Below, piece by piece: positions 6,839 to 63,755 of a DNA stretch of 64,000 bases. The notes beneath the pieces are model-generated. The model had not been told where the DNA came from. It saw only the letters and a list, made by a program, of their open reading frames with translations, and did not search any database. The DNA lies in assembly GCA_017893485.1 (NCBI GenBank), contig CM030360.1, positions 146,382,516 to 146,446,515 on the forward strand, read 5' to 3'. How positions within the stretch are numbered: the first letter of the stretch is position 1; every line of letters starts with the position of its first letter. Both the position numbers and the translations under genes were made by a program. The stretch is from Hemerocallis citrina (Eukaryota; Streptophyta; Magnoliopsida; Asparagales; Asphodelaceae).

Positions 6839-6839
6839 A

Positions 6840-8494: not shown

Positions 8495-8499
8495 CCTAA

Positions 8500-8630
8500 C
8501 CCGCTATCTCCCTAACCCGCTATTGGAGATAACGGGTTAGGTTATCTAAACTTGTTCTCTTCAACAACATGTTAAGTTGAAGATAGAAATTGATTTTCTT
8601 TGAAATATCCATATAACTTGATTTTCTTTT
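8500..8630. repeat. Palindrome array, continuation right of the solo LTR
   Basis: CTAACCCGCTATTGGAG / GATAACGGGTTAGG resumes directly after the CCTAA target duplication. Confidence 0.7.
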
Positions 8631-9820
8631 AAGGGTTAGGTTAGCATTCGAGGGTTAGAGGGTTAGAGGGTTAGGGTTAGAGGGTCATGTTTTAACTCTT
8701 TTCTCATTACATATTCTCATTTTGGATCCCTAGTCATCTTGAACTTACTTACATGTAGTATTTTTTGAAATTTGCTGACCTTAATAACTTTATTGCCTTT
8801 CTTTTTTTTTTTAATTCTAGGGATTGTGAGTGGAAATGGAGATGGATTTTTTTTAAAAAAAATCCAAAAATCAAAAAACCAAATGGCAATTTTTAAAAAA
8901 TATTTAAAAAGTTAAAATAATGAAAAAAATACTTGAATCATGGCCATGTCTAATCCCTAGAGTTATATGATGTTCTGTCTATACATAAATAGGGTTTGTA
9001 ATAAGAGTTAGAATAAGGCTCATTACATCATTCGTCAAATCATGGCTTGTATGTAATAAGGGTTTTTTTTAATTGTATCACTTGAAAAAATAAAAAACTT
9101 GAAAAACTTGAAAAACTTAAAGAAATGAAAACTAAAAAAATAATTTTTTAAAAAAAATCTATACGTAAATAAAATTAAAAATAAAAAAAGTAGCAGATAC
9201 TTAACCTGTTGTTAAAAAGAATTTTAAAAAATAAAGTTAAAAATAAAAATAAAAAAAAACAAAAAAAAAAACAAAAAAAAACAAATGGCAAATTAAAATT
9301 AAAAATAAAAAAATAATTAAAAATGAAAGAAAAAAACAAAATGGGAAAACAACCTTAAAATAATAAAAAATGCAAATTAATTTTTTTAATAAAAGTATTA
9401 AAAATTATTTTAAAATTTTAAAATAATTTAAAAAATATTTCAAATAATTAAAATATATATAATTACGAGGGAAATTATATTTATAGAGTTAATAATAATA
9501 AAAATCAAAATCAACAATACACCGGGTTTGGTTACAATGGGTTAAGTTAACAGTGAAAAGAGTGTTATAGAGATATAGAGAGTCGAACTTCGAAGTTTGG
9601 TGGGTTAGAGATAAGTTAGAATGTTAGGGTTGAAGGACTAGTATGAGTTGGGAGTGTTAAAATAAGTTGTGTTCGTTAATGTGAAATTAAGAGAGTATTA
9701 CATCGAAGTTGTGTTCTTTAAAGTTAATATGCAAGGGTTAGGGGTAGGGGTAGGGTTATGGTTAGGGTTAGGGTTAGGGTAAGGGTTTGGGTTAGGGGTT
9801 GGACTTGGGTGAGAGAAAAT
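8630..9820. repeat. AT-rich centre of the inverted repeat with TTAGGG-like runs
   Basis: GGTTAG/GGGTTAGA runs occur at about 8640-8690 and 9730-9800 and resemble telomere repeats, though plants typically use TTTAGGG and the runs are irregular. Between them lies about 700 bp of A-rich low-complexity sequence (8800-9480). No ORF. Confidence 0.6.
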
Positions 9821-9829
9821 CATGTTCTT

Positions 9830-10505
9830 TTAACTCATTGTTGGTGAAAACGGGTTTATCTAACCTAATCATTTATCGCCAATAACATGTTAGGTTATGT
9901 GGATTTTTTTTCCAAAACTGAAGTTCTCTGTTAGAATTCTTCAATTTAAAACATTATTGGTGATAACGGGTTTGTTTAATCTAACATGTTATCACCAATA
10001 ACGGGTTAGGTTATGTAATTTTTTTTAAAAACATTAAATTCTCTGTTAGAATTCTTCAACTTATCCGTTGTTGGTGATAACGGGTTTATTTAACCTAACT
10101 TGTTATCTCCTATAGCCGGTCCGGTTAGGTTATGTGGATATTTTGAAAAAACATCAATTTCTCTATTAGAATTCTTCAACTTAAACCATTGTTAGTGATA
10201 ACGGGTTTATTTAACCTAATCTGATATATATCTCCAATACCGGGTTAGGTAGAAAATGAACGTGTTCAAATTTCCATTAAAAAAAATTCAAGTCTTTGTT
10301 TCTCTTCAACTTGTCCCGTTATCTTTAATAGCGAGCAAATTTAACTTAACCTTTGTTGGTGATAACAGGTTAAGTTGAAGCTGAAATTGTTCAAATTTGT
10401 TAAAAAGAAGCAAGTCTCTGTTTGAATTTTTCAACATAACCCACTATTAGTGATAACGGGTGAAGTGAACTTAATTCGTTATTGCCAGAAGCGGGTTAGG
10501 CTGAG
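9830..10505. repeat. Palindrome array, right part
   Basis: Six or so ~115-bp units. Each combines GGTGATAACGGGTTTATTTAA with CTAACNNGTTATC and AATAACGGGTTAGG, then a short AT spacer with CTCTGTTAGAATTCTTCAA. Degenerate toward 10500. Confidence 0.75.
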
Positions 10506-10509
10506 TAAT

Positions 10510-11293
10510 TTGTGTTAAAAGTTTACAAACACACAACAGCTATCAGCTGCATACAAATACATCATCAGCATACAATTTTCAAGTTCTAACAACAATAACA
10601 ACAACCCCTCACATTCTCATCCATTCAGAGAAGCATCAGTATACACACAACTTCATATACATTTTCATTCATCCCTCACATTCTCATCTCATTCATTAAA
10701 ACCATTACAACAATAAAAACCACAATACATTCACTTTCTCATCTCGTTCAATCAACACAATAACAATAACAACAATAACAATCTAAACAACAATAACAAC
10801 TATAATAATCTATAACAACTACAATACACAATTAAGCAATTACAATTACATGCACAATATTACACTTAATACTTCAATTACAATTCCCAACTTAGCATGG
10901 TTTCAAAATAGCAAATACATATACACATTTAGAATTATAAATCTTCTTGAAGATCACGATCAAGCTTCATTATGCATGATCATGTTCCAATCAAAACCTG
11001 CAACATACACTTCAAACTTCAAAATTCTTAAATTTTAAATCTAGTGAAATAAGTATTATAAGTTTAGAACTTGAATTTTACATACACAATAACAAATTTA
11101 CCTCACAGCGGTTCTTCAGAAATATTGTCAGAACTCTCTTTATCGGTTGGATCCACAATGGTAGCGCTAAATAAATGAAAAGATTGACTTAGTCAACTTT
11201 TATCTATCAACTTCAACTTTTAAAAAAAAGATTGTGTGATTCAATATTTTTTTAAGTTAAGTTATATACAATTCTACCAAAAAAAGAGATATT
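10510..11293. other. Non-coding, ACAATAAC-rich sequence downstream of the FAR1 pseudogene
   Basis: 10560-10660 is the inverted match of 6290-6470. 10690-10840 is low-complexity (ACAATAACAACAATAAC). No ORF with coding character. Confidence 0.5.
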
Positions 11294-30293: not shown

Positions 30294-30446
30294 CAAGGAG
30301 GGGATTTTTTTACCAAACTATCCCACTTTTTGTAAATATGTACCAAACTATCCCTATTTGAAAATTTAATACCAAAACATCCCAGTCGCTAACGGGGTTA
30401 ACATGTCTAGTAGTTTCCCAAGTGTTAACCTCATTAGCGTGGGTTA

Positions 30447-30734
30447 GGGGATAACACTTTTTCCCTCGAGTGGGGGTGTGCCAAAAAACTCATTCAATAT
30501 AGTAACGCTAACCCCGTTAGCGTTAGTTTTCAAACCACTCGCGTTAATGGGGTTAACGTTCGTAGTTGGGACAATGGGGGGGACTTATTCAAAGAGGGGT
30601 GTTGGTAAAAAAATCATTAAGTATAGACTCGTTAACCACGTTAACGTGCCTCATTATACCAGGCGCACTAACGGGGTTAACGAGTGTCGATTGGGTTCAT
30701 CTTTAAGTAACCCATGCTATCTCACTCTCTTCTC
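30447..30734. repeat. 288-bp tandem duplication, unit 1 (MULE C)
   Basis: GGGGATAACACTTTTTCCC starts at 30447 and again at 30735, with near-identity over the whole unit. The overlapping ORFs (30478-31172) are a by-product. Confidence 0.9.
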
Positions 30735-31021
30735 GGGGATAACACTTTTTCCCTCGAGTGGGGTGTGCCAAAAAACTCATTCAATATAGTAACGCTAACC
30801 CCGTTAGCGTTAGTTTTCAAACCACTCACGTTAACGGGGTTAACGTTCGTAGTTGGGACAATGGGGGGGACTTGTTCAAAGAGGGGTGTTGGTAAAAAAA
30901 TCATTAAGTATAGACTCATTAACCACGTTAACGCGCCTCATTATACCAGGCACGCTAATGGAGTTAACGAGTGTCGATTGGGTTCATCTTTAAGTAACCC
31001 ATGCTATCTTACTCTCTTCTC
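30735..31021. repeat. 288-bp tandem duplication, unit 2 (MULE C)
   Basis: Second unit, with a few substitutions (GTTAACGCGCC for GTTAACGTGCC). Confidence 0.9.
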
Positions 31022-31289
31022 ACATCTCTTCATTAAAAACCCTACCAAGGCGATTTATAACCCAAAACCCCCAAACCCTAGTCTTCGGTTTCGCCATCTA
31101 CTCATCTCAATCTATTGTAATTTTTGGTGGAATCTCTTCATCCCTCTAAATCTCCTAAAACACGCCATTTAAATCTCCTAAAACACGCCATTTGAACCCA
31201 TTTACCCGTTTCCCCAATTTATCGAAAGGAGTGGATCGTGGTGCTTGACGTGGACTTGTTACTTCCGCCATACATTAGTTTGTAAGTGT

Positions 31290-31735
31290 TGCAACTTTCT
31301 GGAAACCAAGGCCGTTAACTGAGTTAACGAGTCTTAGTAACTTCAATTTCCAGAAAGTTGCAACTTTCTGGAAAGTGAAGAACCTCCACAGTCATTAACT
31401 GAGTTAACGAGTCTTAGTAACTTCAATTTCCAGAAAGTTGCAACTTGGCAACTTTCTGGAAAGTGAAGAACCTCAACAGTTGTTAACCTCAACAGTTCTT
31501 AGTAACCTCAACAGATGAGGTTCTTCAATTTCCAGAAAGTTGCAACTTTCTGGAACCAAGGCCGTTAACTGAGTTAACGAGTCTTAGTAACTTCAATTCC
31601 AGAAAGTTGCAACTTTCTGGAAAGTGAAGAACCTCCACAGTCGTTAACTCAGTTAACGGCCGTAGCTTTAAGAAGGCCGTTAACTGAGTTAACGAGACTT
31701 AGTAACTTCATTTTCCAACAAGTTTCAACATTATT
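31290..31735. repeat. Array of GTTAACTGAGTTAAC and GAAAGTTGCAACTTTC palindromes
   Basis: CCGTTAACTGAGTTAACGAG occurs about five times and the second palindrome CAGAAAGTTGCAACTTTCTG at least three times, alternating with CTTAGTAACTTCAATTTC and GTGAAGAACCTC. Confidence 0.85.
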
Positions 31736-31928
31736 GAATTTTCTCATCTGCGGAGTCGTTAACTTTCAAACTAACATATATCGTACAAAGTTTCAATACA
31801 TATAACATAAATCATGATTCCATACAAACTTTCAAACTAACATATAACATAAATCATGATTCCATACAAACTTTCAAATTAAATATTACATCATCAAAAA
31901 AATTCAACTGACAAAACTCCAAAACAAC

Positions 31929-33959
31929 TCAATGTTGGCTTTGAGTAGACTGACTCGTTCCGACATGGTGTTTATTGTGACCCCTCAAACCACATTTTGA
32001 ACACGTCATTCCCGAAGCCCTGCTAGACTCCTCTCGTACATCCATATCATTATGTACTCTCGTACTCTTCGACCGACCTTTCTGAGAACGTCGAATGCTC
32101 GCATCGGGTACAAGTTTGTTTCCAGTATTAACTGGCCAATATGCAGGATCTAGTGTAGGATGAAAATTAGGAGCCCATGTTTGTGTTAACGAAATAGTTG
32201 AGTAAAATGTATCAACATATGGTTTGTAATCAATAGCGCGATATGCACAAGTTGCTAGAACATGAGAACATGGTATATGATATAACTGAAATTTTTGACA
32301 AGTACATGTTTTATTGCCCAAGTTAACGGTGTACAAGTTACCACCCTTTTGATTCTCACCTACTCTTCGTAGACCTGTTTTGACTGCAAAAACTCCAAAT
32401 TGATGGCTAAACAATATCACCTCATGCATGTTGGCTCTTTCACGTCGGAGATCTATCAAATCTTATACTCTTTGTGCAAAAATTTTACCCTCCGTAATTA
32501 GCTTGTTGGCTAATTGACGCCGTGTGGCAAAGTACAAATTAAGACGGTAAAAGATCATGTCCACAATAGCAGTTACTGGTAAACTACGCATGCCTTTCAA
32601 AACCGAGTTGAAAACTTATGATAGGATGGTAGTCATTATCCCATATCGCCGTCCTCCATCTTCAGAAAGTGCCCATTTCGCAACTATTTTCTCTTTCAAC
32701 CAATTTGCCGCTTCCGCATTGATTGTTTCCAATTCCGCGAGTTTGCTTTGAAATTTTTTTGGTTGGTTTTGACATGCTATAATTTTGACTTTCGTCCTCA
32801 TTATTTTGCTACCAAATTTGGTAAAGAAATTGGTAGCAAAATAATGAGGACGAAAGTCAAAATTATAGCATGTCAAAACCAACCAAAAAAATTTCAAAGC
32901 AAACTCGCGGAATTGGAAACAATCAATGCGGAAGCGGTAAATTGGTTGAAAGAGAAAATAATGTCGCATACAATAATGATGATAAGCATTGGGTTCGTTC
33001 CAAGCACCATTCTGCGATTCTATGGGGGCCAAAATACCTGCGTGCCACGGACAACCACCCTCACTTGGAACCGGTGGGATTTGCACCAACTCCTCAAGTG
33101 AACGTTTTCACTGAACCAATTTACATTTTACAACAAAGATGGTAGGTGAAGATTTCATTGTGATAAATTCCCGATGTTTGTTGATGGAGTACAACTTTAC
33201 CGCATGTTGAATTGAATCTTTACTTTGAAACTCTTGCCTAATGTAGAACTCATCTACGGATGAACCAGACAATTCTTGTGGACCATGATTTACTCTCGCA
33301 CTATGTGCCATTTCCTCCATAACATGAGCGTTGACATTATTGAAGCCATCAGTAAAGTTCACATTGACATCAATACTCTCATTCATATTAATATTCAAAT
33401 ATTCGTCTACTTCTTCATCATTTTCATTATGTAATCCCGCTTCAGCTTCATCATCTGTTTCTTCGTCTTCTTCTTCATCATCAACTAAATCATTATTAAC
33501 TGTAGCATTTTCAAATATCCCGAAAAAATTGGTATTCGGAACATAATCATTATCCAAATTTGGTTGACCTGGCAATTCAAATTCAGTATGATCCGGGCAT
33601 GTAGTATTTGGAAAGGTGTGTTCTTGTGAAGACGGAGGAATTTCTTGGAATGTTTGAACTGGATTCGAAACAATCTTACGGATCGGCAATTCACGAGCGG
33701 AGCTTGAGCCAGGGTTAGCATGTGGTTGGGCATTAATATTTTCAATTTGCTGAATATATAGCTCTAGTGCAAACCAACTAAAATTCGGACAAAGTATTCT
33801 ACCAATCATGGACTTCAGAGAGTTGTCGTTTCCTACGGGCACAGTCATAAAATATTGACCATCACCTTTTTCCGCTGCATAACAGGCTAAAATTTTAATC
33901 TTCCATCGTTCTCTATCCCAATTAGTGACCTCATAAACATTCTCTACAAGTTCTTCCAT
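31929..33959 (-). pseudogene. MuDR-type transposase, DDE core deleted
   Basis: Reading from 33959: MEELVENVYEVTNWDRERWK (N-terminal MULE region), an acidic linker (DEEEDEETDDEAE), then the MuDR-type domain (FYIRQEFQSKDSIQHAVKLY) ending at about 33108. After that the zinc-binding and DDE segments are missing or scrambled. The distal part resumes near 32800-32560 (KFQSKLAELETINAEAANWL) and 32459-31929 with the SWIM finger (CTCQKFQLYHIPCSHVLATC, intact C-x-C..C-x-H) and a CCHC-like knuckle (CSKCGLRGHNKHH). A stop near 32462 and the missing core make it inactive. A 131-bp hairpin sits at the deletion. Confidence 0.85.
32685..32960. repeat. 131-bp near-perfect hairpin at the transposase deletion point
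   Basis: 32685-32815 and 32830-32960 are inverted copies with a 14-bp loop and about one mismatch. Both arms are transposase coding sequence, so one is an inverted duplicate. Confidence 0.9.
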
Positions 33960-34938
33960 TGTGATTGTACGAAGTACCTAAATTATTTCGGGATCAACGG
34001 CACTATAAGAACAACCTATTTTTGGGTCATGAATGATCTCACCACCAAAATAAAGCCAAATAGGAATATCATAATCCATACCTATACATATATATATATT
34101 TTTTAAAAATTCAATATCTACTATACAAAATGTATTCGATAAAATGACATAAAAATCATACCTTCAAATGGATGATCAGAAAAGATGAGGAATTTCGAGC
34201 TTGAAGAAGACGGGGTAGTGAAGAAGAGCCACTTGATAAAAATTCCGCTATGTTAATCTCCAAACTAACAATACCCCAAACATGGATTTAGGGTTTTCAA
34301 GGTGGAAGGATATATGAGTGTCAGAGAAGAAGAAGATGAATGTGAGAGAAAAAGAAGAATATCCCTTTAAAATTTTGTAAAGTAATTTTGGACTAAGATC
34401 TACAATTGGGATGCTAGGGTTTTGGAGTTGGGTTCCGAAATTGGGGGAGAAAGAGGAGAGAGAGACACTAAAAGTATAATGATGTTACCTATCAGCGTGT
34501 CTTATTTAAAACTCACCCAAACGACACTAAAAGTATAATGATGTTACCTATCAGCATGTCTTATTTAAAACTCACCCAAACGACACACGCTAACCCGGTT
34601 AGCGCGCCTGATATAAATAAGCACGCTAACAGGGTTAGCGTCCCTATACTAGGTTATTTACAGTTGTCCTAACTACAAATGTTAACTCCGTTAGTGGTTA
34701 AAATACTACCACTAACGGAGTTAACAAGTCAATGTTGGATGAGTTTTTCTGCAAATTCTGACTCAAGAAAAAAAGTGGTATCCCCTAACCCACGCTAACG
34801 GGATTATTGCTAGAGAAACTACTAGACTCGTTAACCCCGTTAGTAACAGGGATGTTTTGGTATTAAAATTTCAAACAGGGACAATTTTGTACGTACATAC
34901 AAAAAGTGGGATAGTTTGGTAAAAAATTCCAAGGAGGG

Positions 34939-41300: not shown

Positions 41301-44300
41301 CTGGAAGCTGAATAGCTCACCTTTTTAAGAGAGTGGGCATTTTTTCCAAGCCCATCCTCCCCAGCATCAAATGCATTCTTACGGTAATGAGGTTCATCTG
41401 GATCTCCATAAGGCACTACCATTTCAACAAAACTCAACCTGTGAGCTACAGGTCTGCGACCACGGCTGCCATCGATATATGCTACAGAATATATAACCAA
41501 TCCCTCTCTGGGAGTGAACCCAATTCGAAAATTCCACTAGTCAGGGTAAAAGGGAAGGGAAAAAAAAGAAATTTCAGTAGAAGCTTAACGTACATTAGAT
41601 AAAAACAGGGAGATTATATACAATGCCAAGACCACTTTTTGGTGTTTATCATCCAACAGATTCAACCAGAAGTAAAGGAAAAGACAACACTTAATTACAC
41701 GTATACGCCACCAATAACAAACATTGCATTTGGCATACAAACCCAAATACCATTCAAACACAGAAGATTGCGATCTGCATACAAATATCACATTTGCGTA
41801 TAAATCCAAAACAGCACTAGTATGGAACGGTATACAGATGATGCTTACTTGTTGAAATGTGAAATTTATATATCCCATCAGAATGTTTTGTAACTGTGAG
41901 ACTGATACAGAACATTACTTTTGGTGTCTGCAAACATCTACTAAATCTAAAACAAAAAAGCAGAGACACGAATAATAGAAAGATACCTTCTGCCATTCGA
42001 TAAAATGACCATTCACACGAAAGCTTGGGCCATCAGGCTGCAGAATTTGCAAAGATTTCACATCACTACGATCAACACCTCCTCTTGTATCTCCTGGAGT
42101 GTAGTTTCTTAACGGATCTGCTGGAGGAAGAGGAACCAGCTTCCTATCTTCGAACTCAACGATAACCACATTTTGGATATCAACAAGAACATAGATGCCC
42201 TCAACGGGGCGTGCATAACCATTCTCCATAGGACAGTCACTCTCTGTCCGACAAAAAATCAGTGGTTTAGCAAGTCGTCGGCTAGGAGAATCAGCTTCAC
42301 TGTGATAACCAACACACCTGCAAAAATTAGCAAATAGTTGCATTAATGATCTGAGTCAAAAAAGAAAACCCTAAGAAGAATTTTACAAACATGAGAATAT
42401 ATTAAAAGAACTCTAAAAAAAGCTTACCAGGCATCTACCATCACCAGGTCCATATCCTCTATGCCTCGCCTCTTCATTGCTTCTCTGAATGGAGGATAAT
42501 CTTTTACAACAGCTTCACATTCTGCATATTCCACAGCATCCTACAATTGAAGAGAAAATTTATTGGGAATTAGAAACTTCAATTAACAGCATCTCTACAT
42601 GCCATTTAACTATTACATTTAAATGGAAAAAGATTAATTAAATTAAATCAAGTCCAACAGACTTGACCATTGCATTTAAATACAACAGTCTGGAAATTAG
42701 AGGTGGCATGTTGCGTCTATTAGATTTGTTTCAACCATTCTCATTGTGTTAGATGATGTTGTTCAGCCATTACAGAAGTGAATTCTTCAGAAAAATTACT
42801 CAGGAAAAAGGTTTTAAGTCAAATTTCTTTTACTTACGTACAATACCTTTCAACTATTGCATTTAGAAGATAAATTTCTTCCAGTGTAGAAGTTTTTAAA
42901 TTTCTAGATGTTGTATTTATATTCAACAAGCATATGAAAGATATACCATTGGCGGTTGTACGTCAGGTACAACTTCTGATGAAATGACCCTCCCTCTATG
43001 ATGACCGCCACGAGTTGCAGCATGTACTTCAGTCAGCTCGACAATCCATATGCTTGTTTCATTTGATTTCTTGTTATAGACAACCAGCCTAGCCCTCCTC
43101 GGAGGTAACTTGCTGGGAATGATGGGTCCACCTTTTGTTCTGGGCACCAGTGATGGTTGGAAGGGAGGGAAAAAATATGCATCAGCCAGAGCGACGATAT
43201 TCTTCTCAGGTTCCAATAGAACCACTTCAACAAAGCGCATGCTATCTCTAACCTGAAAAGAACTTTTGGTTCAACAACTGACGCCTAATAACATGCATAA
43301 AATTCATGTATATAAAAAATGCAAATGGAGATAGGATGTAAACCTCTGGAGTTGCCCCAGCAGCCCTGACCGTTCCTACTGCCACAGAGATTTCGGCAGC
43401 AGATAATGGATCTAAAGGGTGGCTTGATTGAGCCCTCATCATCACTGGGATACCTTAACAAATATATTATAATCAACCAGAAATTAAACTAAACATTAAC
43501 ATGCAAAACAATTTATCCATCTGATCAACAAAAACTCACAATGAGGTTAACTCGTTAAGCAAAAGAAGAAGTGGCAACCAGTGTTAGGTTGCAACATAAA
43601 CAGCAAAAATGAAAGCTAGGCAAGTTGAATGACAACTTTATAATAATAATAAAAATTCTCCTTTTTGTAAGAAATTATTTTCAAGAAAAGTGTAATACAA
43701 CAACTACATGTAATACAACAACTACAGAACCTTTTTCCCGACTAGTTGGGGTCGGCTACATGAATCATAGTTTTCCATTATGCTCGGTTTAGCGCAATAT
43801 ATTATGGAAGGCCACAAACTATCATATCTTCTCTCACCTTTTCCACCCAAGTAAGTTTAGATCTTTCCTTACCCCTAACTCTACCATCAATACTTATTAA
43901 ATCACCTTTCTCTAACTGGGGCATTACTATGTCTACGTGTGACATGTTCAAACCACCAAAAGCGATTTTATCTTATTTTATCTTGGATAGGAGCTACATT
44001 TACCATGTCTCGTACATGCTCGTTTCTAATTCTATCATTCATGGTTTTATCACACATCCATCTTAACATCCTCATCTCCGCTACACCAATTTTTTGGATC
44101 TAGGTTTCTTTGTTAACCAACACTTTGCTTTATACATCATTGTTGGTCTAACAACCGTTCTATAATTTTTCTTTCAATTTCAAAGGTATACGTTTATCAC
44201 ACAAAACACCACTAGTGTTTCTCCACTTAAGCCGCCCTACTTGGATCTTATGAATAACATCTTCATAAATCTCCTCATCTCTTTGTGAGCCTAAATATTG

Positions 44301-50867: not shown

Positions 50868-51216
50868 TATTTATAATAATAAAAAATCCGACGTTGCCTG
50901 GCATCAAACCTAAGATCTCATTTATATAAGTTATACATCTGCATTGCACGTGTTTGTTTGGTGACACTCTCCCAGTAAAATAGTAGAGATAGATATCGCA
51001 ATGCTTATTTTATTTGGTTTTTTTTTTTCTTTTTTCCATATCTTTTTCTTTTTTATTTTTAGGATTTTATTTGCGTAATTTAATAAGGTTACTTCAAATG
51101 TTATTGTTATGTAAAATGTAAATTCATTTTTTTTTTTAATGAAAAGTTGCTTTTATCAAACCGGAGTGAAATTTCTATTTTGAAAAAGATGTACATAAGC
51201 TCTGTGGACAAGTTTT
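50868..51216. other. AT-rich intergenic sequence
   Basis: A fragment of reverse Helitron (CACGTGTTTG, AATAGTAGAGA near 50985), then T-rich low complexity. Confidence 0.4.
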
Positions 51217-51437
51217 TTTTGATGTGAACGGATAGAGTCTATCAGACTCCAGCCACAGCAAAAATATATTAATAATAATAATAATGTACGTCGAGGGTTT
51301 TACGATATGTAAAACTGAATAATACAGACCTAAGTTCTCCAATACATATACAATCAACAGTAGAGAGTGGACAGAGGGGAATACTGAAAACCCGCCAACC
51401 GCAAGGGGAATACTGAAGAGCAGCCAGACACTCAAAA
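51217..51437 (-). mobile_element. Short LINE-type retroposon copy 2
   Basis: Flanked by a perfect 17-bp duplication CTCTGTGGACAAGTTTT (51200-51216 and 51438-51454). T run at the left end, so it is reverse with a poly(A) 3' end. The terminal stem-loop reads GAGTC-TGATA-GACTC on the minus strand. Confidence 0.85.
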
Positions 51438-51454
51438 CTCTGTGGACAAGTTTT

Positions 51455-51843
51455 GAGTGTGTTTAAAATGTGATAATCTATATACTGCAAGTGATCTTTA
51501 ATCTCTCTTTTATTTTCTTTCTCTTCTTCTGGCAAAAGTTTCGATATGTTAAATGCCGTAAACTGTCCTTATGTCTTTCGTATTGCATGTGTGTAATGTG
51601 TATAATGAGAGACAAATACCAAATTTATAAAATGTCTAACACAAACATGGACATTCCCCTTCTGATTATTCATGATATTTAAAACAAAAATTCACTGCTA
51701 AGGTTACTCTTATCCTACAATTACTTTGCAACTCTCAGTCACAGACTAGTGTCTTTTGTTTGTTTTTTTATTAGCCACATATCCTCTGCTGTTAAATTCT
51801 TTACTAATGAGTAATGAGCAAAAACTGAAGTTTTGAATCCAGC
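51455..51843. other. AT-rich non-coding
   Basis: Nothing recognised. The 70-codon ORF at 51470 has no family features. Confidence 0.4.
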
Positions 51844-51846
51844 TTA

Positions 51847-52624
51847 GAGCATCCACAGCGGTTTCTTATAATTGACAATTTGCTATTTTATAAGAAACGA
51901 TCGTCTGCAGTGATTTTCTATTTTCTCATGTTTTAGCAAACTCGCTATATCTGTTTCTCATATATGAGAAACGAAATACCCATTCTCAAATTATAAAGGA
52001 CGGGATATCATATACCGTCGCTCCGATTTTATAATATTTTAATCACGTCAAATGGGAAAACATATACTGTCCCTCCGATTTTTTTTTTTTTTTTTTTTAA
52101 CTCCTCAGACGGGATATGTTATCTCGTCTGAATCGGACGGGAGAACATATCCCGTCCCAGGAGATTTTCAAATTTTTTTTAAATTTTTTTTTTTAAATGA
52201 ACGGCCAAGATTCGTCCGATAAAAAAATGAAAATTAATTAATTCTCGGACAGGATATTATCCCGTCCTTGAATTGGGGTATTAGTTAGGTAGTGGGTGGG
52301 TTTAGGGGTATTAGTTAGGTATAGTTAGTTAATTAATTAGGTTTAGTTATTATAATATTATTTATTTTATTTAATTAATATATTTTAATAGTTAACTAAT
52401 AATTAAATTTTTTAATTTTTTTTAAAACGAGAGAGACGGTATAACATATACCGTCCCACGCAATTTTTTTAAAAAAATTGCGAGACGGTATATGTTATAC
52501 CGTCCTACGCAATTTTTTTTAAAACGCGCAGAATATAGCAAACAACCACTGCAGCGTTCTTCGCTATTTGCTATTACTGTAGCATCCATTTTTTACAAAA
52601 TGAGAAACACCATTGTGGATGCTC
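51847..52624. mobile_element. PIF/Harbinger-like MITE E1 with iterated palindromes
   Basis: TIR GAGCATCCACAGCGG / CCATTGTGGATGCTC with 3-bp TTA duplication (51844-51846 and 52625-52627). Inside are about seven palindromes of the form GACGG-TATA..TATA-CCGTC or GACGGGATAT..ATCCCGTC (near 51990, 52055, 52108, 52136, 52245, 52432 and 52484). No ORF. Confidence 0.8.
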
Positions 52625-52781
52625 TTACACGTAATATATATCACCTATGACGTGTATTTATGTTATCTTCTCCCTCTTTTTTTTTCATCATAAACGAGAT
52701 TCATTAAAAAAGGGAAAAACATCTAATATATTTTATTTATGTATTTTTTCAGTATGATGTACTTAGGGATTGTTCTATTAA

Positions 52782-52959
52782 TCTCTAATATTATAATGGG
52801 AGAAAACCTTAGTGTCATTTGTCATTTTGTCATCCTATCAACATGTACAACGCACGTACATAACTAATATAAAAGAGGTTTCGGTTCAAATTCTCTTTTC
52901 GTCAGAGTTTTTTTTAAAAAAAAATTATTAAAACGTGCATCACACGTGTAAATTGCTAG
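52782..52959 (+). mobile_element. Non-autonomous Helitron, family 1
   Basis: A, then TCTCTAATATTATAATGGG; ends ACGTGCATCACACGTG, TAAATTG, CTAG, then T. Confidence 0.75.
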
Positions 52960-53186
52960 TTTTTTATTAATGAAATATGATAACTATATTCTATTTTTTA
53001 TGAAGAGAAAAAAAAATAAAAAATATCTATATAATAAAACAAAAAAAAACTATCAAGTGGCTCTCTTTCAATCCCTCCCAAATCAAGGGCCCAGATATAA
53101 CATCACAAAACACATTTTTTTTCCAAAAGTTTTTCCCCAAAACTCAAATTGAAATTCCCCAAAAACAACTTATTTATTTATTTAAT

Positions 53187-53230
<44 letters not shown>

Positions 53231-53252
53231 ACACACACACACACACTATATA

Positions 53253-53433
53253 CTAGTAATTTACACGTGCGATGCACGTTTTTAATAATTTCAAAAAATA
53301 AAAATAAAAACTCTGACGTAGGAAAGATTTGAACCGGAAACCTCCTTTGTGTTATGTACGTGCGTTGCACATGTTGGTATAATGACAAAATGACAAATGA
53401 CACTAAGGCATTCTCCCATTATAATAGTAGAGA
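53253..53433 (-). mobile_element. Non-autonomous Helitron, family 1, reverse
   Basis: CTAG then AATTTACACGTGCGATGCACG at the left; CCCATTATAATAGTAGAGA at the right. It lies head-to-head with the copy at 53434. Confidence 0.7.
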
Positions 53434-54390
53434 CTATTAGAGCATCTGTAGTCGTTATCTATATATCGATAATATCGATATTTGGTATAAAAAACAGCTG
53501 CAGTCGTTTGCTATATATCGATATTATCGATAAATCGCTACAGTAGATTGCTATAAATGAGAATCGATATAGCATTTATCGATAAGTGAGGGACGGCATG
53601 CCGTCCGTTTGAAAAAATTAATATTTTATTCGTCGGACGGCACTTGAAGTGCCGTCCGTTTGGAAAAATTATAATTTACCCGAATTATTAAACCCAAAAA
53701 ATGAATTAAAAGCCGCTTTACCCGGACGGCACTTGATGTGCCGTCCGTTGGAGATTTCTTTAAAAAAAAAAATAGCTAATTAATTATTCTGTGAGTTAGT
53801 GTGTTTTAGTGTCAGTGTAATAAGTGTTGTGTCAGTGAGTGTGTTAGTGTAATTAATTAGTGTGTTAATTAGTGTTGTGTTAGTGTGTCAGTGAGTGTTA
53901 GTGTAAGTTAGTGTTTAGTGTAATTAATTAGTAGTTTAATTAATTAAGGTGTGTCGGACGGCACTTCATGTGCCGTCCTAGACACACGGGTTGCGATTTT
54001 TTTTTTATTATTATTTTTTAAAACAGACGGCACTTCGTGTGCCGTCCGACGATTCCGCGCCCAATTTTTGCTTTTTCGCCCTCCGACGGCATATCAAATG
54101 CCGTCGCTTAATATTAAATGATTGTTTGCTATAATATAGCTTTCGACGAGTGCAGCGAAATCCAAATTTTTATTTCTATTTATCGATATATGGATAAAAA
54201 TAACATTAACGACTACAGATACTCTTATAATGGGAGAATGCCTTAGTGTCATTTGTCATTTTGTCATTATACCAACATGTGCAACGCACGTACATAACTA
54301 ATACAAAGGAGATTTCCGGTTCAAATCATCCTTACGTCAGAGTTTTTTTTAAAAAAAAATTATAAAAACGAGTCATGTGTAAATTACTAG
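53434..54390 (+). mobile_element. Non-autonomous Helitron, family 1, split by MITE E2
   Basis: The 5' tip CTATTA (before 53440) joins TAATGGGAGAATGCC at 54228; the CTAG 3' end is at 54387-54390. Confidence 0.6.
53440..54224. mobile_element. PIF/Harbinger-like MITE E2 with iterated palindromes
   Basis: TIR GAGCATCTGTAGTCG / CGACTACAGATACTC, TTA duplication (53437-53439 and 54225-54227). Six palindromes GGACGGCACTT-GAAGTGCCGTCC type (near 53592, 53636, 53728, 53954, 54024 and 54082). 53790-53950 is a GTGTTAGTGT low-complexity stretch. Confidence 0.85.
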
Positions 54391-54391
54391 T

Positions 54392-54462
54392 GATGGGAGA
54401 ATGCCTTAATGTCATTTGTCAATCTACCAACACGTGCATCGCACGTGCATAACTAATACTAG
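54392..54462 (+). mobile_element. Truncated Helitron, family 1
   Basis: ATGGGAGAATGCC to CACGTGCATCGCACGTG and CTAG before T; about 70 bp. Confidence 0.55.
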
Positions 54463-54893
54463 TATATATAAATGGAAACATGGACTTTTATATCCTTATT
54501 TATAATTATTTTTCACCATAAACTAATAGAAATATGAACTTTATTTATAACTAATTATTGTCATATTATTCAAACTTCAGATACATAACTGTTGATTTAC
54601 TGTTTACAAAACTTTTCATACGCTGTATGGTTCGGCAACTTTTCATATGCTGTATGGTTCGGCACGTGGTCACGGACAAATCTAGTATATATATAGTACT
54701 CAATAATGTACAAATTTGGGATTTGCATAACCATCAACACGTGTACATGTACTTGCTGCTGTTTTGAAATAGAGTCATCTATTTTGTCACGCAAAAGGAC
54801 GATGGAGTTATTTTTGTCCTTCCTAGTTTAACATATTCATTCATTGCCAGCCTGTAAAGAATTGATCTTTCATCTTTCCACCCACTTATCTCT

Positions 54894-55643
54894 GAAAGAT
54901 TTGCTGTACTGAGGCACTTTTTAAAAATATTGGGGTCTGATTCACTTTGGAAAATAATTAGCAATTTGACTCAATTTTGAACACGTCAGTCGTCAGCATA
55001 AGCCGTTATTAGAAATAACTGCATATAAATAACAGATGCCGTTATTTTCAGTAACGGCATTATTTTACATTTTTTTTGTATGTAGCTTTTTGGAGTAACG
55101 GTATCAGTATATTTCTCATACGAGCGTGAATTTTCTGACTTGGAAAAAATTCTAAGTGTTGAAACAACTTATAAATAATGTCGTTATCCCCAAGAACGGT
55201 ATTCGAATTACTGATGCCGTTATTGAAGATAACGACATCAGTTATGATAAAATAAATTGTTGTCGTTGTTTCAAACAAATGTAACAGTTCATTTTATTAT
55301 AACTGATGTTGTTATTTCCAATCATGACATCAGTAATTCGAATACTGTTCTTGGGGATAACGGCATTATTTATAAGTTGTTTCAACACTTAAATTTTTTT
55401 CCCAAGTCAGAAGATTCATGCTCATATGAGAAATATACTGATGTCGTTACTCCAAATAACGGCATGCAAAAAAAATGTAAAATGATGCCGTTATTGGAAA
55501 TAACGGCATAGGTTTTTATGCCGTTATTTTCAATAACGGTTTATGCTGACGTATCCAAAATTAGGTCAGATCGCTAATTGTTTTCGAAAGTGGGTCAGAC
55601 CCCCAAATATTTTCAAAAAGTGGGTCTGTACGACAAAAAATTC
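54894..55643. mobile_element. Fold-back MULE, family D
   Basis: Nearly the whole 750 bp is one palindrome centred near 55265. Termini GAAAGATTTGCTGTAC / GAATTTTTTGTCGTAC, perfect 9-bp duplication CTTATCTCT (54885-54893 and 55644-55652). Internal GCCGTTATT / AATAACGGC palindromes recur about six times. No transposase. Confidence 0.85.
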
Positions 55644-55699
55644 CTTATCTCTATGATCAGTAGTTAATAAGAAAAGTACGACAACTATTCTGTACCTTA

Positions 55700-56577
55700 G
55701 AGCATCTGTAGTCGTCTGCCATTTACCCATATTTTGGAAAATTTGGAAAAAAAATATCGCTCTAGTCGTTGGCCATTTACCCAAAAAATGGCAATCGAAT
55801 AAACAGTGGTCGGCCAAATTTGGGAGACGAAATGACTTTTGCCAAAATATAGCTAACGGCAGATTATCTTTCGTTATTGTTGGGACGAAAGATTATCTTT
55901 CGTCGGAGACGTCGGAAGGAAAATAAAACATCGTCCCTACACAATTTCAGCAGAAACATCGACGGACGGGAGATAATATCCCGTCCGATGAATTAATTAA
56001 AATTAAAGTTGAATGACAGCAAACAATGTACCGCCCCTTAACAAAAAAAAAAAAAAAAGGGGGGTGGCACGGTGGATTATCTACCGTCCCTCCATTTAAA
56101 TTTTTTTCCCTTAAATCAAAAATTACATATATACCCTTATTCACCTTTTTTCCCATCCAATTCACTTAAAATTATGGATTATTTCCCGTCCAACTCACTT
56201 TTTTTATTTTATTTTTTAATTATAGGTGTTAGACGGTAAACAATGTACCGTCCGGTACATAGGTAAAAAAAAAAATTCATTTCGACGGACGGGATATGAT
56301 TTCCCGTCTGTTCGAATTTTATTTTTTTATTTTTAAATTTCGTCGGACGACAGTTTATTTCCCGTCCCGTATATTTTTTAATAAATTAGTTTTTTCCTTT
56401 CGATAGATGATATATAATCCTCCGTCCGTTCTAACTTACCTCTACAAATCGCTTGGACGATAGATAATCTTTCGTCTGACCCAATTTTTAGCTTTCGACG
56501 ACTGCAACGCAAACTCATTTTTTCTATTTCCATTTTCCAAATACCCAAAACTTGGCTCACGACGACTACAGATGCTC
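55700..56577. mobile_element. PIF/Harbinger-like MITE E3 with iterated palindromes
   Basis: TIR GAGCATCTGTAGTCGTC / GACGACTACAGATGCTC, TTA duplication (55697-55699 and 56578-56580). Up to eight palindromes of GACGGGAGATAATATCCCGT type, with variants GACGAAAGATTATCTTTCGT and GACGGTAAACAATGTACCGT. Confidence 0.85.
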
Positions 56578-56731
56578 TTAAAGTTCTTATCCTCATTGGT
56601 TATGATACCACTTCCTTATCCTCACGTAATACAAATCAGACATGAGAGAGTTATATGTCTAGCTTTTGAATTATAATACTAGTATAGATAATAAATTGTC
56701 AATTAAATTTATCTAGAATACTTATCTCTAA

Positions 56732-57270
56732 GAGCATCCACAGTCGTTTGCTATTTATGCATATTATACATATTTTAGCTAAAAAAGCATTGTAGTCGTT
56801 TGCTATTTATGCATATTTTTACGATTTCGCAATAGTAGATTGCAATATATGATAGCGCAAATGAGAAAATGCATATTATACAGGACGGGTCTTGAAGATC
56901 TGTCCCACGAAAAAAAAAATTCTAATTGGTCGGACGGAACTTGAAAGTCCGTCCGACGTTTTTTTTGAATTTCTAAAGAAAAAAAAATTCCACAAATAAG
57001 CCTAACTCCCCTTGGACAGATCTTGAAGATCCGTCCGTGGAGGGGCCCACCAATTTTTTTTTATATATTTTCACTAAAAAAATTGTTTTAAATTATTAAA
57101 AGAATCACAAAAATTATTTAAAATTTGTGGGTCGGATCTCGAAGATCCGTCCGATCATAATTTTTTTTTGTTTGCTATATTATAGCATTTTATCACTGCA
57201 GCAAACTCGCTTTGCTATATGTATAATATACATGTATGCATATTTTAGCAAATCACGACTGTGGATGCCA
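56732..57270. mobile_element. PIF/Harbinger-like MITE E4 with iterated palindromes
   Basis: TIR GAGCATCCACAGTCG / CGACTGTGGATGCCA, TAA duplication (56729-56731 and 57271-57273). Four palindromes of GGACAGATCTT-GAAGATCCGTCC type (near 56881, 56932, 57013 and 57121). Confidence 0.8.
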
Positions 57271-57709
57271 TAATCTCTAATCTCTAATAGTAGTATTATA
57301 CACGTGTTGTGCACGTGGAGAAAATTTTTGGGAAAAAATGAAAAGGCCAAAAAAAAAAAAAATCTACCAGCACGTCCGTTGCACGGGTTGGTAGATGGAT
57401 AAATTACACTAAGGCCTTCTCTCATTATAGTAGTAGAGATTAAACGTGCATTGCACGGGTTGGAATATGGACAAATTACACTAAGGCCTTCTCCCATTAT
57501 AGTAGTAGAGATTATAATGAGAGAAAGCCTTAGTGTCATTTGTAAATCTACCAACATGTGAAACACACATACATAACTAATATAAAGGAGGTTTCAGGTT
57601 TGAGTCCTCCATATGTCAGAGTTTTTTATTTTTATTTCTATTTTTTAAATTAATACAACGTGCATCGCACTTGCAAATTAATCTCTAATCTCTACCCTCT
57701 ACTCTCTAA
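57271..57709. mobile_element. Cluster of partial Helitrons, family 1
   Basis: Reverse 5' ends ATTATAGTAGTAGAGA at about 57425 and 57498, a forward copy from about 57505 (TATAATGAGAGAAAGCC) to an ACGTGCATCGCAC 3' end near 57675, and a reverse 3' hairpin near 57300. Ends are degraded. Confidence 0.55.
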
Positions 57710-57873
57710 TCTATATAATAAAACACAAAGAAAGCTATCAAGTGGCTCTTATTCAATCCCCCCCAAAATCAATGGCCAAGATCTAATCTCACAAAACACA
57801 TTTTTCCTCCCAAAGTTTCATCCCAAAATTCAAATTCAAATCCCTCCCAAAACAACTCCTTTATTTATTTGAT

Positions 57874-57930
<57 letters not shown>

Positions 57931-58139
57931 CATACTTATGGAAACATGGACTTTTATACCTCGATTCATAATTATTTTCAACATTTACTAATGAAAACAT
58001 GGACTTTTATTTACAACTAATTATTGTCATAGTATTCAAACTTGAGCTATATAATTGTTGATTTACTATTTATAAGGCTTTTCATATGTTGTATCGTTCT
58101 GAAGACGTGCCGTAGGCACGTGCCCACAGACAAATCTAG
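57710..58139 (+). mobile_element. Non-autonomous Helitron, family 2 (reference copy)
   Basis: A, then TCTATATAATAAAACAC; the 3' hairpin GACGTGCCGTAGGCACGTGC, 16 nt, then CTAG before T. It contains (CT)n at 57877-57914. 430 bp, uninterrupted. Confidence 0.8.
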
Positions 58140-58405
58140 TCTATCTATAATATTATAATGGGAGAAGGCATTAGTGTCATTTGTAAATCTACCACTTTAC
58201 GTGTTTTGCACGTGCAACTCCAACTCTCTCATTATACATTTTATTTAAATCTACTAATTTACGTGCATTACACGTATAACTTAAACTCTCTCATTATACT
58301 CTTTATATTACTTTTAAAAATATGTACCTATTAACACGTGCTATATTATATTACTTTAAAAACTATATAATGATTAAAACGTGCATCGCACGTGTTAAAT
58401 ACTAG
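58140..58405 (+). mobile_element. Non-autonomous Helitron, family 1
   Basis: TCTATCTATAATATTATAATGGG at the 5' end; ACGTGCATCGCACGTG, 9 nt, CTAG, T at the 3' end. It directly abuts the family 2 copy. Confidence 0.65.
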
Positions 58406-58408
58406 TAA

Positions 58409-58682
<274 letters not shown>

Positions 58683-58742
58683 ATCTAAAAAATGTCTCAC
58701 TTTCGAGGACAGACTACAACAAAATTTTTACTTTAAAAAATA

Positions 58743-58922
58743 CTAGTAATTTACACGTGCGATGCACGTTTTAATAAATTCAAAAAATAAAAATAAAAAC
58801 TCTGACGTTGGGAGGATTTGAACTGGAAACCTCCTTTATATTAGTTATGTACGTACGTTGCACATGTTGGTAGAATGACAAAATGACCAATGACACTAAG
58901 GCCTTCTCCCATTATAATATTA
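58743..58922 (-). mobile_element. Non-autonomous Helitron, family 1, reverse
   Basis: CTAG then TAATTTACACGTGCGATGCA at the left; GGCCTTCTCCCATTATAAT at the right. Confidence 0.7.
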
Positions 58923-58942
58923 TTATTACTATTATTATTATT

Positions 58943-59030
58943 AGTAATATACACGTGCGATGCACGTATTAATGGGAGAGTTGGAGTTGCACGCAAGCAG
59001 GTAGATTTACAACTCCAACTCTTCCATTAT
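58943..59030 (-). mobile_element. Helitron fragment, family 1
   Basis: AATATACACGTGCGATGCACG followed by an unrelated GGAGTTGCACGC segment and TTCCATTATAATAG. Confidence 0.45.
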
Positions 59031-59039
59031 AATAGTTAC

Positions 59040-59251
59040 TATATATATTATATTATAGATAGATAGATAGATAGATAGATAGTAATTTACATGTGTGATG
59101 CACAATTAATATATTAAAAAATTAAAGTAAAAAATTTGACGTAGTGAGGACTCGAACCTGAGACCTCCTTCATATTAGTTATGCGCGTGCAGTGCACGGG
59201 TTGGTAGATTGACAAATGACACTAAGCTCTTCTCCCATTATAATATTAGAG

Positions 59252-59303
<52 letters not shown>

Positions 59304-59560
59304 GAGATTTATTTATTAAAACGTGCATCGCAAAGAAAATAATAATTATCCCTAATATTATGATGGGAGAAGGCCTTAGTGTCATTTGCAAATCTACCAA
59401 CGCGTACATTGCACGTGCATAACTAATATAAAGGATGTCTCAGGTTCGAGTCCTCACTACGTCAGTTTTTTTACTTTAATTTTCTTTTAATATATTAAAT
59501 GTACATTACACGTGTAAATTATTATCTATCTATCTATCTATCTATCTATAATATAATATA
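59040..59560. repeat. Long inverted duplication built from two Helitrons
   Basis: A reverse Helitron (about 59082-59252) flanked by (GATA)n mirrors a forward Helitron (about 59345-59524) flanked by (TATC)n; an (ATT)n run (59253-59302) is the spacer. The outer TATATTATATTATAGAT also mirrors. Confidence 0.75.
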
Positions 59561-62071: not shown

Positions 62072-62129
62072 ACTGCTTCAGAAGCCGACCCGAGCCCGAC
62101 CATAGAGCGACCTCGACAGCCGAACTCTC

Positions 62130-63755
62130 ATGGCCTCCAAGGGCAAGAGGGCCGCGTCCTCCGTCAACCGACGGGACACACCCCCACCAAATACCAATGC
62201 CGGGCCACACGCATCAAGGCACGGAGATTCCCATCAGGGATCCCGGCGAAGCGCCACCCGTACAGTCCAGCCCGACCTACGGGGAGTAATCGTCAACCGA
62301 CAGATTAGCCGCAACAGGGGAAGGGCCGCTTCCAACCCGGCCCCGAACCATCCGAGACCGCCGCCCGAGGGACGAAGGTCGGCACTCAGCCGCATCGGAA
62401 GGCAGCCTCCAGACCGACCAAACCGGGTCGAGGGAGCCCCCGTCACTCACAAGGAGTTCCAAGACTTCCGGAGAGAAATTCTCGGGGCCCTCCGACGGAC
62501 CCCCAGGGAGGAAACCCTCCGCTCCCAAACAGGATCGGATGCCGAGACCAGCGCGTCACGCCCTTCAACAAACCAGCCAGAAGACGATGGCATACTCCTA
62601 AGGCGCCTCCAAGAAATGGAGGATCGCCTCGATCATATAGGAGACGGCGACCGACGGGCGGCTCAGGGGTACAGACCTGTCCGACCTCTCTTCTCTGCCC
62701 CCATCCTCCAAGCGGAAATACCCAGGAATTTCCGACCACCTCAGTTCGAGACCTACGACGGCGAGGGAGATCCCGCTGATCACATGGAAGGTTTCAAAAC
62801 CCTCATGATGATTCACAGCGCCTCGGATCCCCTGCTATGCCGAGCCTTCCCCGCCACGCTTCGGGGTCCGGCTCGTGAATGGTATTCGAAACTCACCCCC
62901 GGCTCCATTTACTCCTTCAACCAACTAGAGGGCAATTTTCTCGCCCACTTCGTCACCAGCCGGAAGGCGGAAAGGACTAGCGCCTCTTTACTTGGGCTCA
63001 AGCAGATAGAGGGAGAGTCCCTCAGAGTGTTCGTCCGGAGATTTACCACGGAGGCGAGGTCGGTCAACTCTCTTGATCCAGGCGTCGCCTCTGCGGCCTT
63101 TCGGTACAACGTTCGTCATGGACAGCTGAAAGCTTCTCTGGCGAAGAGACCCCCCATCGACTTTCCCGATCTCCTCAACAGGGTCGAGAAATACATTAGG
63201 GCAGAAGAGGCCCTTAACCCCGAAGATACCAGGGAGGCCATAGGGAAGGGAAAGCGGAAGGTCGAAGAGGTCGAACCATCAAAGAAAGCTCCGAGGGACG
63301 CGGGGGCCATGAAGAAGGTCCCGCCGGTCCCCCGCTTCGAGAGGTACACTCCCTTGACGCATAACGTATCCGCCATCCTCTTAGAAATCGAAGACAAAGG
63401 CATTGTCCGACTACCCCCCCGATCTAATAACAACAAGAATCGAGATCAACGCTTCTACTGCCGCTTCCACAGAGATCACGGGCACGAAACCGACCAGTGC
63501 CGGGCCCTGAAAGACGAAATTGAGGAACTCATCTCCAGGGGGTACCTCCGAGAATTCACCCGAGAAGTCCCGCGGGATCGACGAGATACTAGGAACCGAG
63601 GTCCTCCCCTCCGAACCCTACCCCGAACCGCATCTAGGGTCGGGATCCCGAATCCGAGGGAGCCGCAGATACACCCTTCATCTTGCACTGTATCCACGGA
63701 GGGCCAATGGGAGGAGATTCAAATACTTCCTGAAAAGCCTTCATCCGGGAGGTGA
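62130..63755 (+). CDS. gag: Retrotransposon gag polyprotein (Ty3/gypsy, Tat-like), 541 codons
   Basis: Structural protein of virus-like particles. An Arg/Pro-rich basic N-terminus (residues 1-120) is followed by the retrotransposon gag core at about 185-330 (RAFPATLRGPAREWYSKL; LKQIEGESLRVFVRRF). The C-terminal zinc-binding region is at about 445-475 (YCRFHRDHGHETDQC, an H-rich knuckle typical of this group). Composition is GC-rich and codon use differs sharply from the AT-rich surroundings. The ATG at 62130 lies 59 nt after the PBS. The frame closes at 63755 while the protease continues in another frame. A long intact gag suggests a recent insertion. Confidence 0.85.
   Translation: MASKGKRAASSVNRRDTPPPNTNAGPHASRHGDSHQGSRRSATRTVQPDLRGVIVNRQISRNRGRAASNPAPNHPRPPPEGRRSALSRIGRQPPDRPNRVEGAPVTHKEFQDFRREILGALRRTPREETLRSQTGSDAETSASRPSTNQPEDDGILLRRLQEMEDRLDHIGDGDRRAAQGYRPVRPLFSAPILQAEIPRNFRPPQFETYDGEGDPADHMEGFKTLMMIHSASDPLLCRAFPATLRGPAREWYSKLTPGSIYSFNQLEGNFLAHFVTSRKAERTSASLLGLKQIEGESLRVFVRRFTTEARSVNSLDPGVASAAFRYNVRHGQLKASLAKRPPIDFPDLLNRVEKYIRAEEALNPEDTREAIGKGKRKVEEVEPSKKAPRDAGAMKKVPPVPRFERYTPLTHNVSAILLEIEDKGIVRLPPRSNNNKNRDQRFYCRFHRDHGHETDQCRALKDEIEELISRGYLREFTREVPRDRRDTRNRGPPLRTLPRTASRVGIPNPREPQIHPSSCTVSTEGQWEEIQILPEKPSSGR

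Follow-up and report, generated by a model that had tools for sequence, protein, structure and literature searches.

Within a 64-kb window of the Hemerocallis citrina genome (C3:146382516-146446515 of a 3.775-Gb assembly in 701 contigs; the window is the whole 64,000-nucleotide stretch analysed), we identified four miniature inverted-repeat transposable elements (MITEs), E1 to E4, each filled with its own dispersed series of palindromes in which GGACGG and its inverted complement CCGTCC frame an element-specific centre, generally 11 bases long. At slightly better than even odds (about 0.52), we read them as Tourist/PIF-Harbinger-like MITEs with internal arrays of putative dimer-type sites for a protein of an autonomous partner. 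The elements are, with target-site duplications (TSDs):

51847..52624, unstranded: E1, MITE-like, 778 bp, TSD TTA, palindrome codes TAT/GAT
53440..54224, unstranded: E2, MITE-like, 785 bp, TSD TTA, code CAC; 7 near-identical full-length copies elsewhere in the genome
53440..53590, + strand: left end of E2, terminal inverted repeat plus repeated subterminal motif TATCGATA
55700..56577, unstranded: E3, MITE-like, 878 bp, TSD TTA, mixed codes AAG/GAT/TAG
56732..57270, unstranded: E4, MITE-like, 539 bp, TSD TAA, right end degenerate, code ATC

By duplication, size and ends, E1-E4 are Tourist-like MITEs. Their ends are GAGCATCYRYAG-like, with GAGCATCYRYAGYSG at the start and the same or a close inverted variant at the finish; the terminal inverted repeats (TIRs) are short, begin with G and are GAGCATCYRYAGYSG-like on both sides, as is characteristic of PIF/Harbinger elements, and so are the 3-bp TTA or TAA duplications that flank all four. 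The right end of E4 is degenerate, with GGATGCCA in place of GGATGCTC (TGGCATCC). Independent evidence comes from E2: when the element and one TTA are excised, the flanks form one unbroken inverted repeat (58 of 60 bases match in the printed arms; best dyad 82/90), and E2 is therefore a true insertion. The elements are small (539-878 bp in the window, 536-1710 bp among those fetched from elsewhere), present in many copies and non-coding. Nothing recognisable is encoded in E1-E4 among the window frames examined, the sole frame of at least 130 amino acids (aa) that touches them (57180-57593, minus strand) crosses the end of E4 into the flank, and an Rfam search of the window returned no match at gathering thresholds. 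A preliminary description of the window had proposed GAGCATC-type termini with TTA/TAA duplications and a PIF/Harbinger-like MITE label, and both proposals stood: four complete elements of this kind were found, with 3-bp TWA duplications, TIRs, small non-coding bodies and many copies. The subterminal motifs, compared by eye, differ by element (TATCGATA in E2, TATGCATA in E4, TTTACCCA in E3). The ends in the window read GAGCATC followed by YR and do not match G(N)5GTT, given in the accessible text of PMC2213677 as the TIR motif used for Medicago elements; coming from one search in one species, that motif is not taken here as defining the PIF/Harbinger superfamily.

Scanning the window for GACGG/CCGTC half-sites with dyad symmetry gave 23 palindromes, six in E1, six in E2, seven in E3 and four in E4, in keeping with the proposal that each element holds its own series:

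51999..52019, unstranded: E1 palindrome 1, centre GATATCATATA
52108..52128, unstranded: E1 palindrome 2, centre GATATGTTATC
52136..52156, unstranded: E1 palindrome 3, centre GAGAACATATC
52248..52266, unstranded: E1 palindrome 4, spacing 9
52435..52455, unstranded: E1 palindrome 5, centre TATAACATATA
52484..52504, unstranded: E1 palindrome 6, centre TATATGTTATA
53591..53606, unstranded: E2 palindrome 1, collapsed; registered by the dyad scan as 53588-53609, spacing 12
53636..53656, unstranded: E2 palindrome 2, centre CACTTGAAGTG
53725..53745, unstranded: E2 palindrome 3, centre CACTTGATGTG
53957..53977, unstranded: E2 palindrome 4, centre CACTTCATGTG
54026..54046, unstranded: E2 palindrome 5, centre CACTTCGTGTG
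54085..54105, unstranded: E2 palindrome 6, centre CATATCAAATG
55855..55875, unstranded: E3 palindrome 1, half-sites with 3 mismatches
55884..55904, unstranded: E3 palindrome 2, centre AAGATTATCTT
55965..55985, unstranded: E3 palindrome 3, centre GAGATAATATC
56068..56088, unstranded: E3 palindrome 4, centre TGGATTATCTA
56232..56252, unstranded: E3 palindrome 5, centre TAAACAATGTA
56288..56308, unstranded: E3 palindrome 6, centre GATATGATTTC
56456..56476, unstranded: E3 palindrome 7, centre TAGATAATCTT
56884..56904, unstranded: E4 palindrome 1, centre GTCTTGAAGAT
56933..56953, unstranded: E4 palindrome 2, centre AACTTGAAAGT
57015..57035, unstranded: E4 palindrome 3, centre ATCTTGAAGAT
57131..57151, unstranded: E4 palindrome 4, centre ATCTCGAAGAT

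Exactly 11 bases separate GACGG from CCGTC in 21 of these 23; the first palindrome of E2 is short, wanting 7 bases that all ten fetched copies of the E2 family have. At most one mismatch being allowed, the scan yielded 6, 7, 6 and 4 pairs in E1-E4, compared with means of 0.02-0.07 in 300 dinucleotide shuffles per element. In the rest of the window this stricter scan gave a single match, and a looser one gave 15, every one of them with 2-3 mismatches. The same geometry dominates the whole genome, where exact GGACGG-N11-CCGTCC occurs at 25,036 sites (32 for the reversed control pattern), compared with 375 sites at N10 spacing (control 159), 345 at N12 (control 27) and 123 + 142 = 265 in direct orientation on the two strands (controls 86 and 102). 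Because the inverted N11 count so far exceeds the others, we regard spacing and orientation as rules of the module. In the 20 fetched loci described below (L005-L024) together with the window, 60 exact GACGG/CCGTC pairs lie at gap 11 and at most 3 at any other gap from 0 to 25, the loci having been chosen by the gap-11 pattern. Three simpler origins were rejected. Chance is ruled out by the shuffles and the genome-wide control patterns, and tandem repetition by a tandem-repeat listing without such an array and by the unrelated flanks of the sites; nor are the elements long inverted repeats that mirror their own sites, as their halves align over 46-95 columns in E1, E3 and E4 and 157 in E2, compared with 366 columns, almost the whole half, in an unrelated element at 55 kb.

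We then asked whether the sites belong to elements, using 20 loci fetched around exact sites on contig C1 and window positions 51001-58000, with the scan limited to gap 11. All 20 TIR pairs with equal TTA/TAA duplications carry at least two gap-11 sites, 78 in all, in a sample where each locus was chosen for holding an exact site, which favours site-bearing elements; three of the 20 are not the elements that prompted the choice (L013_4349, L021_4326 and L024_4398), and all three carry sites. Strict elements do not account for a further 33 sites, spread over 10 of the 20 loci; judged by eye, most of these adjoin a TIR for which the partner or the duplication did not qualify. We looked for scatter independent of the termini and for the density of shuffled sequence and saw neither (78 sites inside, 33 outside), and the array can be treated, as first proposed, as a property of the element. 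Exact sites make up 28 of the 78, or 1.4 per element, so that the genome-wide count corresponds very roughly to 18,000 elements, an order of magnitude drawn from a biased sample.

The module has the profile GGACGG-NNN-WT-S-AW-N'N'N'-CCGTCC, often preceded by TC in exact sites. Symmetry between its arms was measured in the first 50 exact sites of C1, which comprise 28 distinct centres, against 5000 rounds of random pairing. Position 6 was equal on both arms in 24 of the 28 centres (7.2 expected, maximum 15 in 5000), position 7 in 21 (13.1 expected), position 8 in 19 (9.8), position 9 in 22 (13.0) and position 10 in 18 (17.7); the whole triplet was the same on both arms in 34 of the 50 sites. 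Base choice in the AT-rich core is limited. Position 9 holds A or T in all 144 arms (144 of 144) from 17 elements, in 119 of 120 from L005-L024 and the window, and in 98 of 100 from the C1 exact sites, and none of these three sets has a G at position 10.

Centres are element-specific, as the preliminary description had claimed. Across the 20 elements and their 78 sites, inner bases agree at 7.79 of 10 positions within elements and 4.92 between them (0/2000 permutations); in the window alone the values are 8.2 and 4.65 of 11 (0/5000). The further claim that copies agree within an element is strongly true of E2 and E4 and only statistically true of E1, where GAT and TAT centres mix, and of E3, which combines AAG, GAT, TAG and others. 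The same test applied to the 30 flanking bases of sites in the window was negative (p 0.35), and agreeing sites with unlike flanks are therefore dispersed modules, not tandem repeats. Similarity of code tracks similarity of the 140-bp ends (Mantel rho 0.33, 3/5000, 20 elements), as expected if the code is a subfamily trait. This association bears on a reading that we hold to be a long shot, in which a host transcription or chromatin factor binds the sites and thereby makes portable operators or decoys of the elements: subfamily-specific inner bases that follow the end type point instead to element-specific readers. A host protein would fit the single outer motif common to all subfamilies, and also three other palindrome-filled elements of the window, whose CCGTTA/TAACGG or CGTTA/TAACG arms, outside the GAGCATC group, resemble plant MYB core sites.

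The E2 family has moved recently. Among 40 scored of 1596 first-look candidates, eight places, including E2 itself, are 100% identical to its 151-bp left end. Seven of ten fetched copies are full-length and 97.9-99.0% identical to E2, and all seven have TTA or TAA duplications of their own; in L060 the aligned end is followed by TTA, and the fetched copy L061 ends in N. CpG observed/expected was 1.35-1.37 within E1-E4 and 16 fetched elements, compared with 0.81 for the window; these 20 elements are therefore not CpG-depleted as long-methylated copies would be.

From these observations we infer a protein, its dimeric state, an autonomous partner and a function, and the following scheme is conditional on them. 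E1-E4 would belong to one large superfamily of non-autonomous MITEs with several subfamilies in this genome, and each internal palindrome would be a two-fold symmetric binding site of about 21-23 bp. Its reader would be a DNA-binding protein, most likely as a homodimer or in two copies, that the subfamily's autonomous partner supplies in trans. One part of this protein, shared across subfamilies, would read the outer GGACGG and a variable part the inner triplet, and the AT-rich core WTSAW would separate the two monomers as a spacer. The presence of several such sites may allow the protein to gather on an element, aiding transposase assembly or keeping silencing off, and in the course of subfamily splits triplet and subterminal motifs would have changed along with the cognate protein. 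Rigid spacing, a fixed outer motif, a constrained core and a subfamily triplet are what related dimeric DNA-binding proteins would leave behind. In PIF/Harbinger elements the work is shared by a transposase and a Myb-like open reading frame 1 (ORF1) protein, to which DNA binding is assigned in the accessible text of PMC2836001, and this makes the ORF1 protein our first candidate; a VANC-like anti-silencing protein (PMC5735166) is the second candidate. More tentatively, the palindrome may be an address, in which a constant frame (GGACGG, 11-bp spacing, WTSAW core) holds a symmetric triplet that names the subfamily and is read by putative paralogous dimeric partner proteins, so that, out of tens of thousands of sites, each transposase or anti-silencing protein would recognise those of its own copies alone.

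Several observations weigh against a dimeric reader supplied by a partner element. The whole triplet is arm-equal in just 15 of the 28 distinct centres. When arms were re-paired inside each of 17 elements with at least three sites (72 sites), positions 5-8 covaried between arms beyond the element consensus (p 0.0055, 0/2000, 0.0015 and 0.0135). Such covariation is predicted by a hairpin or by the copying of whole sites, and not by a plain consensus half-site; beyond consensus, neither positions 9 and 10 nor the eight flanking bases per side were symmetric in this sample. Template switching between arms is known as quasipalindrome correction, and a hairpin account would have the sites form DNA cruciforms or RNA stem-loops with a 5-base loop, or would have symmetry kept by such arm-to-arm switching without selection. 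Covariation that stops at the would-be loop positions 9-10 suits it, as does the folding of E2 as RNA, far better than that of 20 shuffles (z -13.2), although any such palindrome series would fold. A hairpin does not need an exact length, yet spacing 11 exceeds 10 and 12 about 70-fold; the symmetry stops short of the flanks, the outer GGACGG is fixed in sequence beyond mere pairing, the would-be loop is constrained in base choice, and opposed mismatches show no preference for G.T (A.C 25, G.T 19, A.A 17, T.T 16). Stems of about 9 bp are, moreover, short for plant Dicer-like enzymes. Because spacing is rigid and the core base-constrained, we favour binding sites and judge the hairpin account rather unlikely; the suggestion of a hairpin-RNA source thus retains the arm covariation in its favour and is otherwise the less favoured reading.

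The decay of the sites gives evidence both for and against a reader. In its favour, identity pooled over 11 pairs of related copies was 0.80 in sites (733/918), 0.645 in spacers (2037/3159) and 0.79 in ends (2068/2617); the pairs share members and are non-independent, and a site counted as such if it was intact in one of the copies, which favours sites. Bases absent from the second copy numbered 132/1050 in sites, 912/4071 in spacers and 23/2640 in ends, and among the related copies listed sites are kept at homologous positions. The pooled difference between sites and spacers is accounted for by four CAC-type pairs (0.78-0.90 versus 0.56-0.61) and three ATC-type pairs (0.89-0.90 versus 0.67-0.76). 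Against a reader, sites in the E1 subfamily hardly exceed spacers (0.50-0.83 versus 0.48-0.75), three of four pairs showing little or no gap (0.74-0.83 versus 0.73-0.75) and the L013 pair none (0.50 versus 0.48). Two of the three subfamilies compared thus conserve their sites better than their spacers. Also against a reader, substitutions among E2 and its seven recent copies fell in 10 of 1200 cells in sites, 37 of 3080 in spacers and 13 of 2080 in ends, so that in very recent copies sites decay like spacers (0.83 versus 1.2 per 100), as expected for copies drifting after insertion.

Such decay also suits an account by descent and exchange, in which the sites are old, have no present-day reader and are reshuffled and made uniform, block by block, through recombination or gene conversion between related MITEs. 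L055 and L058 match the 151-bp E2 end at 100% and retain sites of the same code although much of their spacer sequence differs, and the symmetric codes mixed in E1 and E3 would be explained in the same way. Moved blocks would bring their spacer along, yet the flanks of same-element sites are unlike, and the 11-bp rule and constrained core are left unexplained; we regard this account as decidedly unlikely. The data are compatible with the concerted evolution first suggested for the arrays and offer no way of telling selection on the sites from the copying of one site to another.

The search for a partner adds to the points against. Genome-wide, there are 4009 first-look candidates for the transposase domain PF13359; palindrome sites were present in 0 of 30 such loci (±1.5 kb), and 12 of the 30 had one TIR-like match (2 mismatches), in no case bordered by TTA/TAA. 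The 40 scored E2-end places and the 150 listed places for PF04827 (Plant_tran) transposases, two small samples compared by eye, never come within 10 kb of each other. The latter domain has 5839 first-look candidates, of which the 150 listed are, by eye, mostly open frames of about 280-480 aa; such long frames among those listed suggest recently active PIF-type elements. At L012:4800-7600 we noted a decayed PIF-like coding remnant, one piece of which matches PF04827 (E-value 3.4e-12) and another the NAM-associated PF14303 (7e-4, below cut-off). Judging from a reading of the sequence by eye and a weak end alignment, it seems to lie beyond the right end of the neighbouring palindrome MITE, outside it. 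Attempts to reach a partner through the PF13359 loci, the L012 remnant or the PF04827 coordinates each led to no link with GAGCATC ends.

Among known systems, CACTA elements (En/Spm TNPA sites, Tpn1) resemble E1-E4 in carrying many short transposase-related binding motifs per element, and differ in that their arrays are subterminal and mostly non-palindromic and belong to another superfamily. VANDALs, which are Mutator-like elements (MULEs), offer a second parallel. Their element-specific short motifs run through non-coding parts and are read by an element-encoded, co-evolving protein (accessible text of PMC5735166 and PMC10398659). The VANC21 motif YAGTATTAY stands in one-orientation tandem repeats (PMC5735166, same limit), whereas here the palindromes lie in unrelated MITE spacers, with no tandem array, unrelated flanks and a motif that is itself symmetric. 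Closer in class, mPing with Ping/Pong (Tourist/PIF-Harbinger) shares the 3-bp duplications, TIRs and sub-kilobase non-coding copies, but the accessible text of PMC2836001 mentions no palindrome series for mPing, while binding-site-like modules fill the interior here. MtPH-A6-4 of Medicago truncatula, as far as PMC2213677 could be consulted, shows that a PIF interior can be repeat-filled (60-bp variable-number tandem repeats, each with a triplicated AAACNNCTTATT motif); its repeats are tandem and its TIR G(N)5GTT, in contrast to the dispersed palindromes and GAGCATC ends here. Coral CMITEs also have an unusual interior, which varies less from family to family than the TIRs do and has a suggested role in transposition, but by the abstract (PMC2872659) they are piggyBac-related and their conserved interior lacks a variable code. 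Repeat-filled PIF interiors (MtPH-A6-4) and element-specific motif arrays (VANDALs) are thus already known from these sources, taken in part. A MITE with dispersed palindromes, a constant frame and a subfamily triplet was not found in the literature searched, in which subscription journals were thinly covered, and this is weak evidence of novelty.

The window holds other palindrome-filled elements without GAGCATC ends, which share CGTTA/TAACG in their arms. At 30303-34929 lies a MULE-like element with a 9-bp duplication CAAGGAGGG, a SWIM zinc finger (1.4e-10) and a MuDR-type piece (2.2e-4, below cut-off), with palindromes of its own in ends and interior (TAACGCTAACCCCGTTAGCGTTA; TTCCAGAAAGTTGCAACTTTCTGGAA repeated). 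Between E2 and E3, a long inverted repeat at 54900-55640, unrelated to E1-E4, has arms 79-87% complementary and filled with GCCGTTATTnnnAATAACGGC-like palindromes, and a third region, 6480-10510, carries a AACCCGTTATTGGnGATAACGGGTT-like series between apparent long inverted ends (by eye). Several copies of a repeat containing TAATGGGAGAAGGCCTTAGTGTCATTTG, which we take to be Helitron-like by its ends, occupy 52771-59428, with E2 between two inverted copies. A retrotransposon gag frame (PF03732) lies at 62106-63755 and a copper amine oxidase exon (PF02728) at 41915-42355.

What lets transposon proteins pick out the non-autonomous copies that belong to them, and pass over close relatives, is an open question. 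In this one genome such address changes seem to occur as a natural series, with a constant frame, a variable triplet and recent copies, which makes the coevolution of site and protein directly testable; the sites may also serve as thousands of ready-made operators across the genome.

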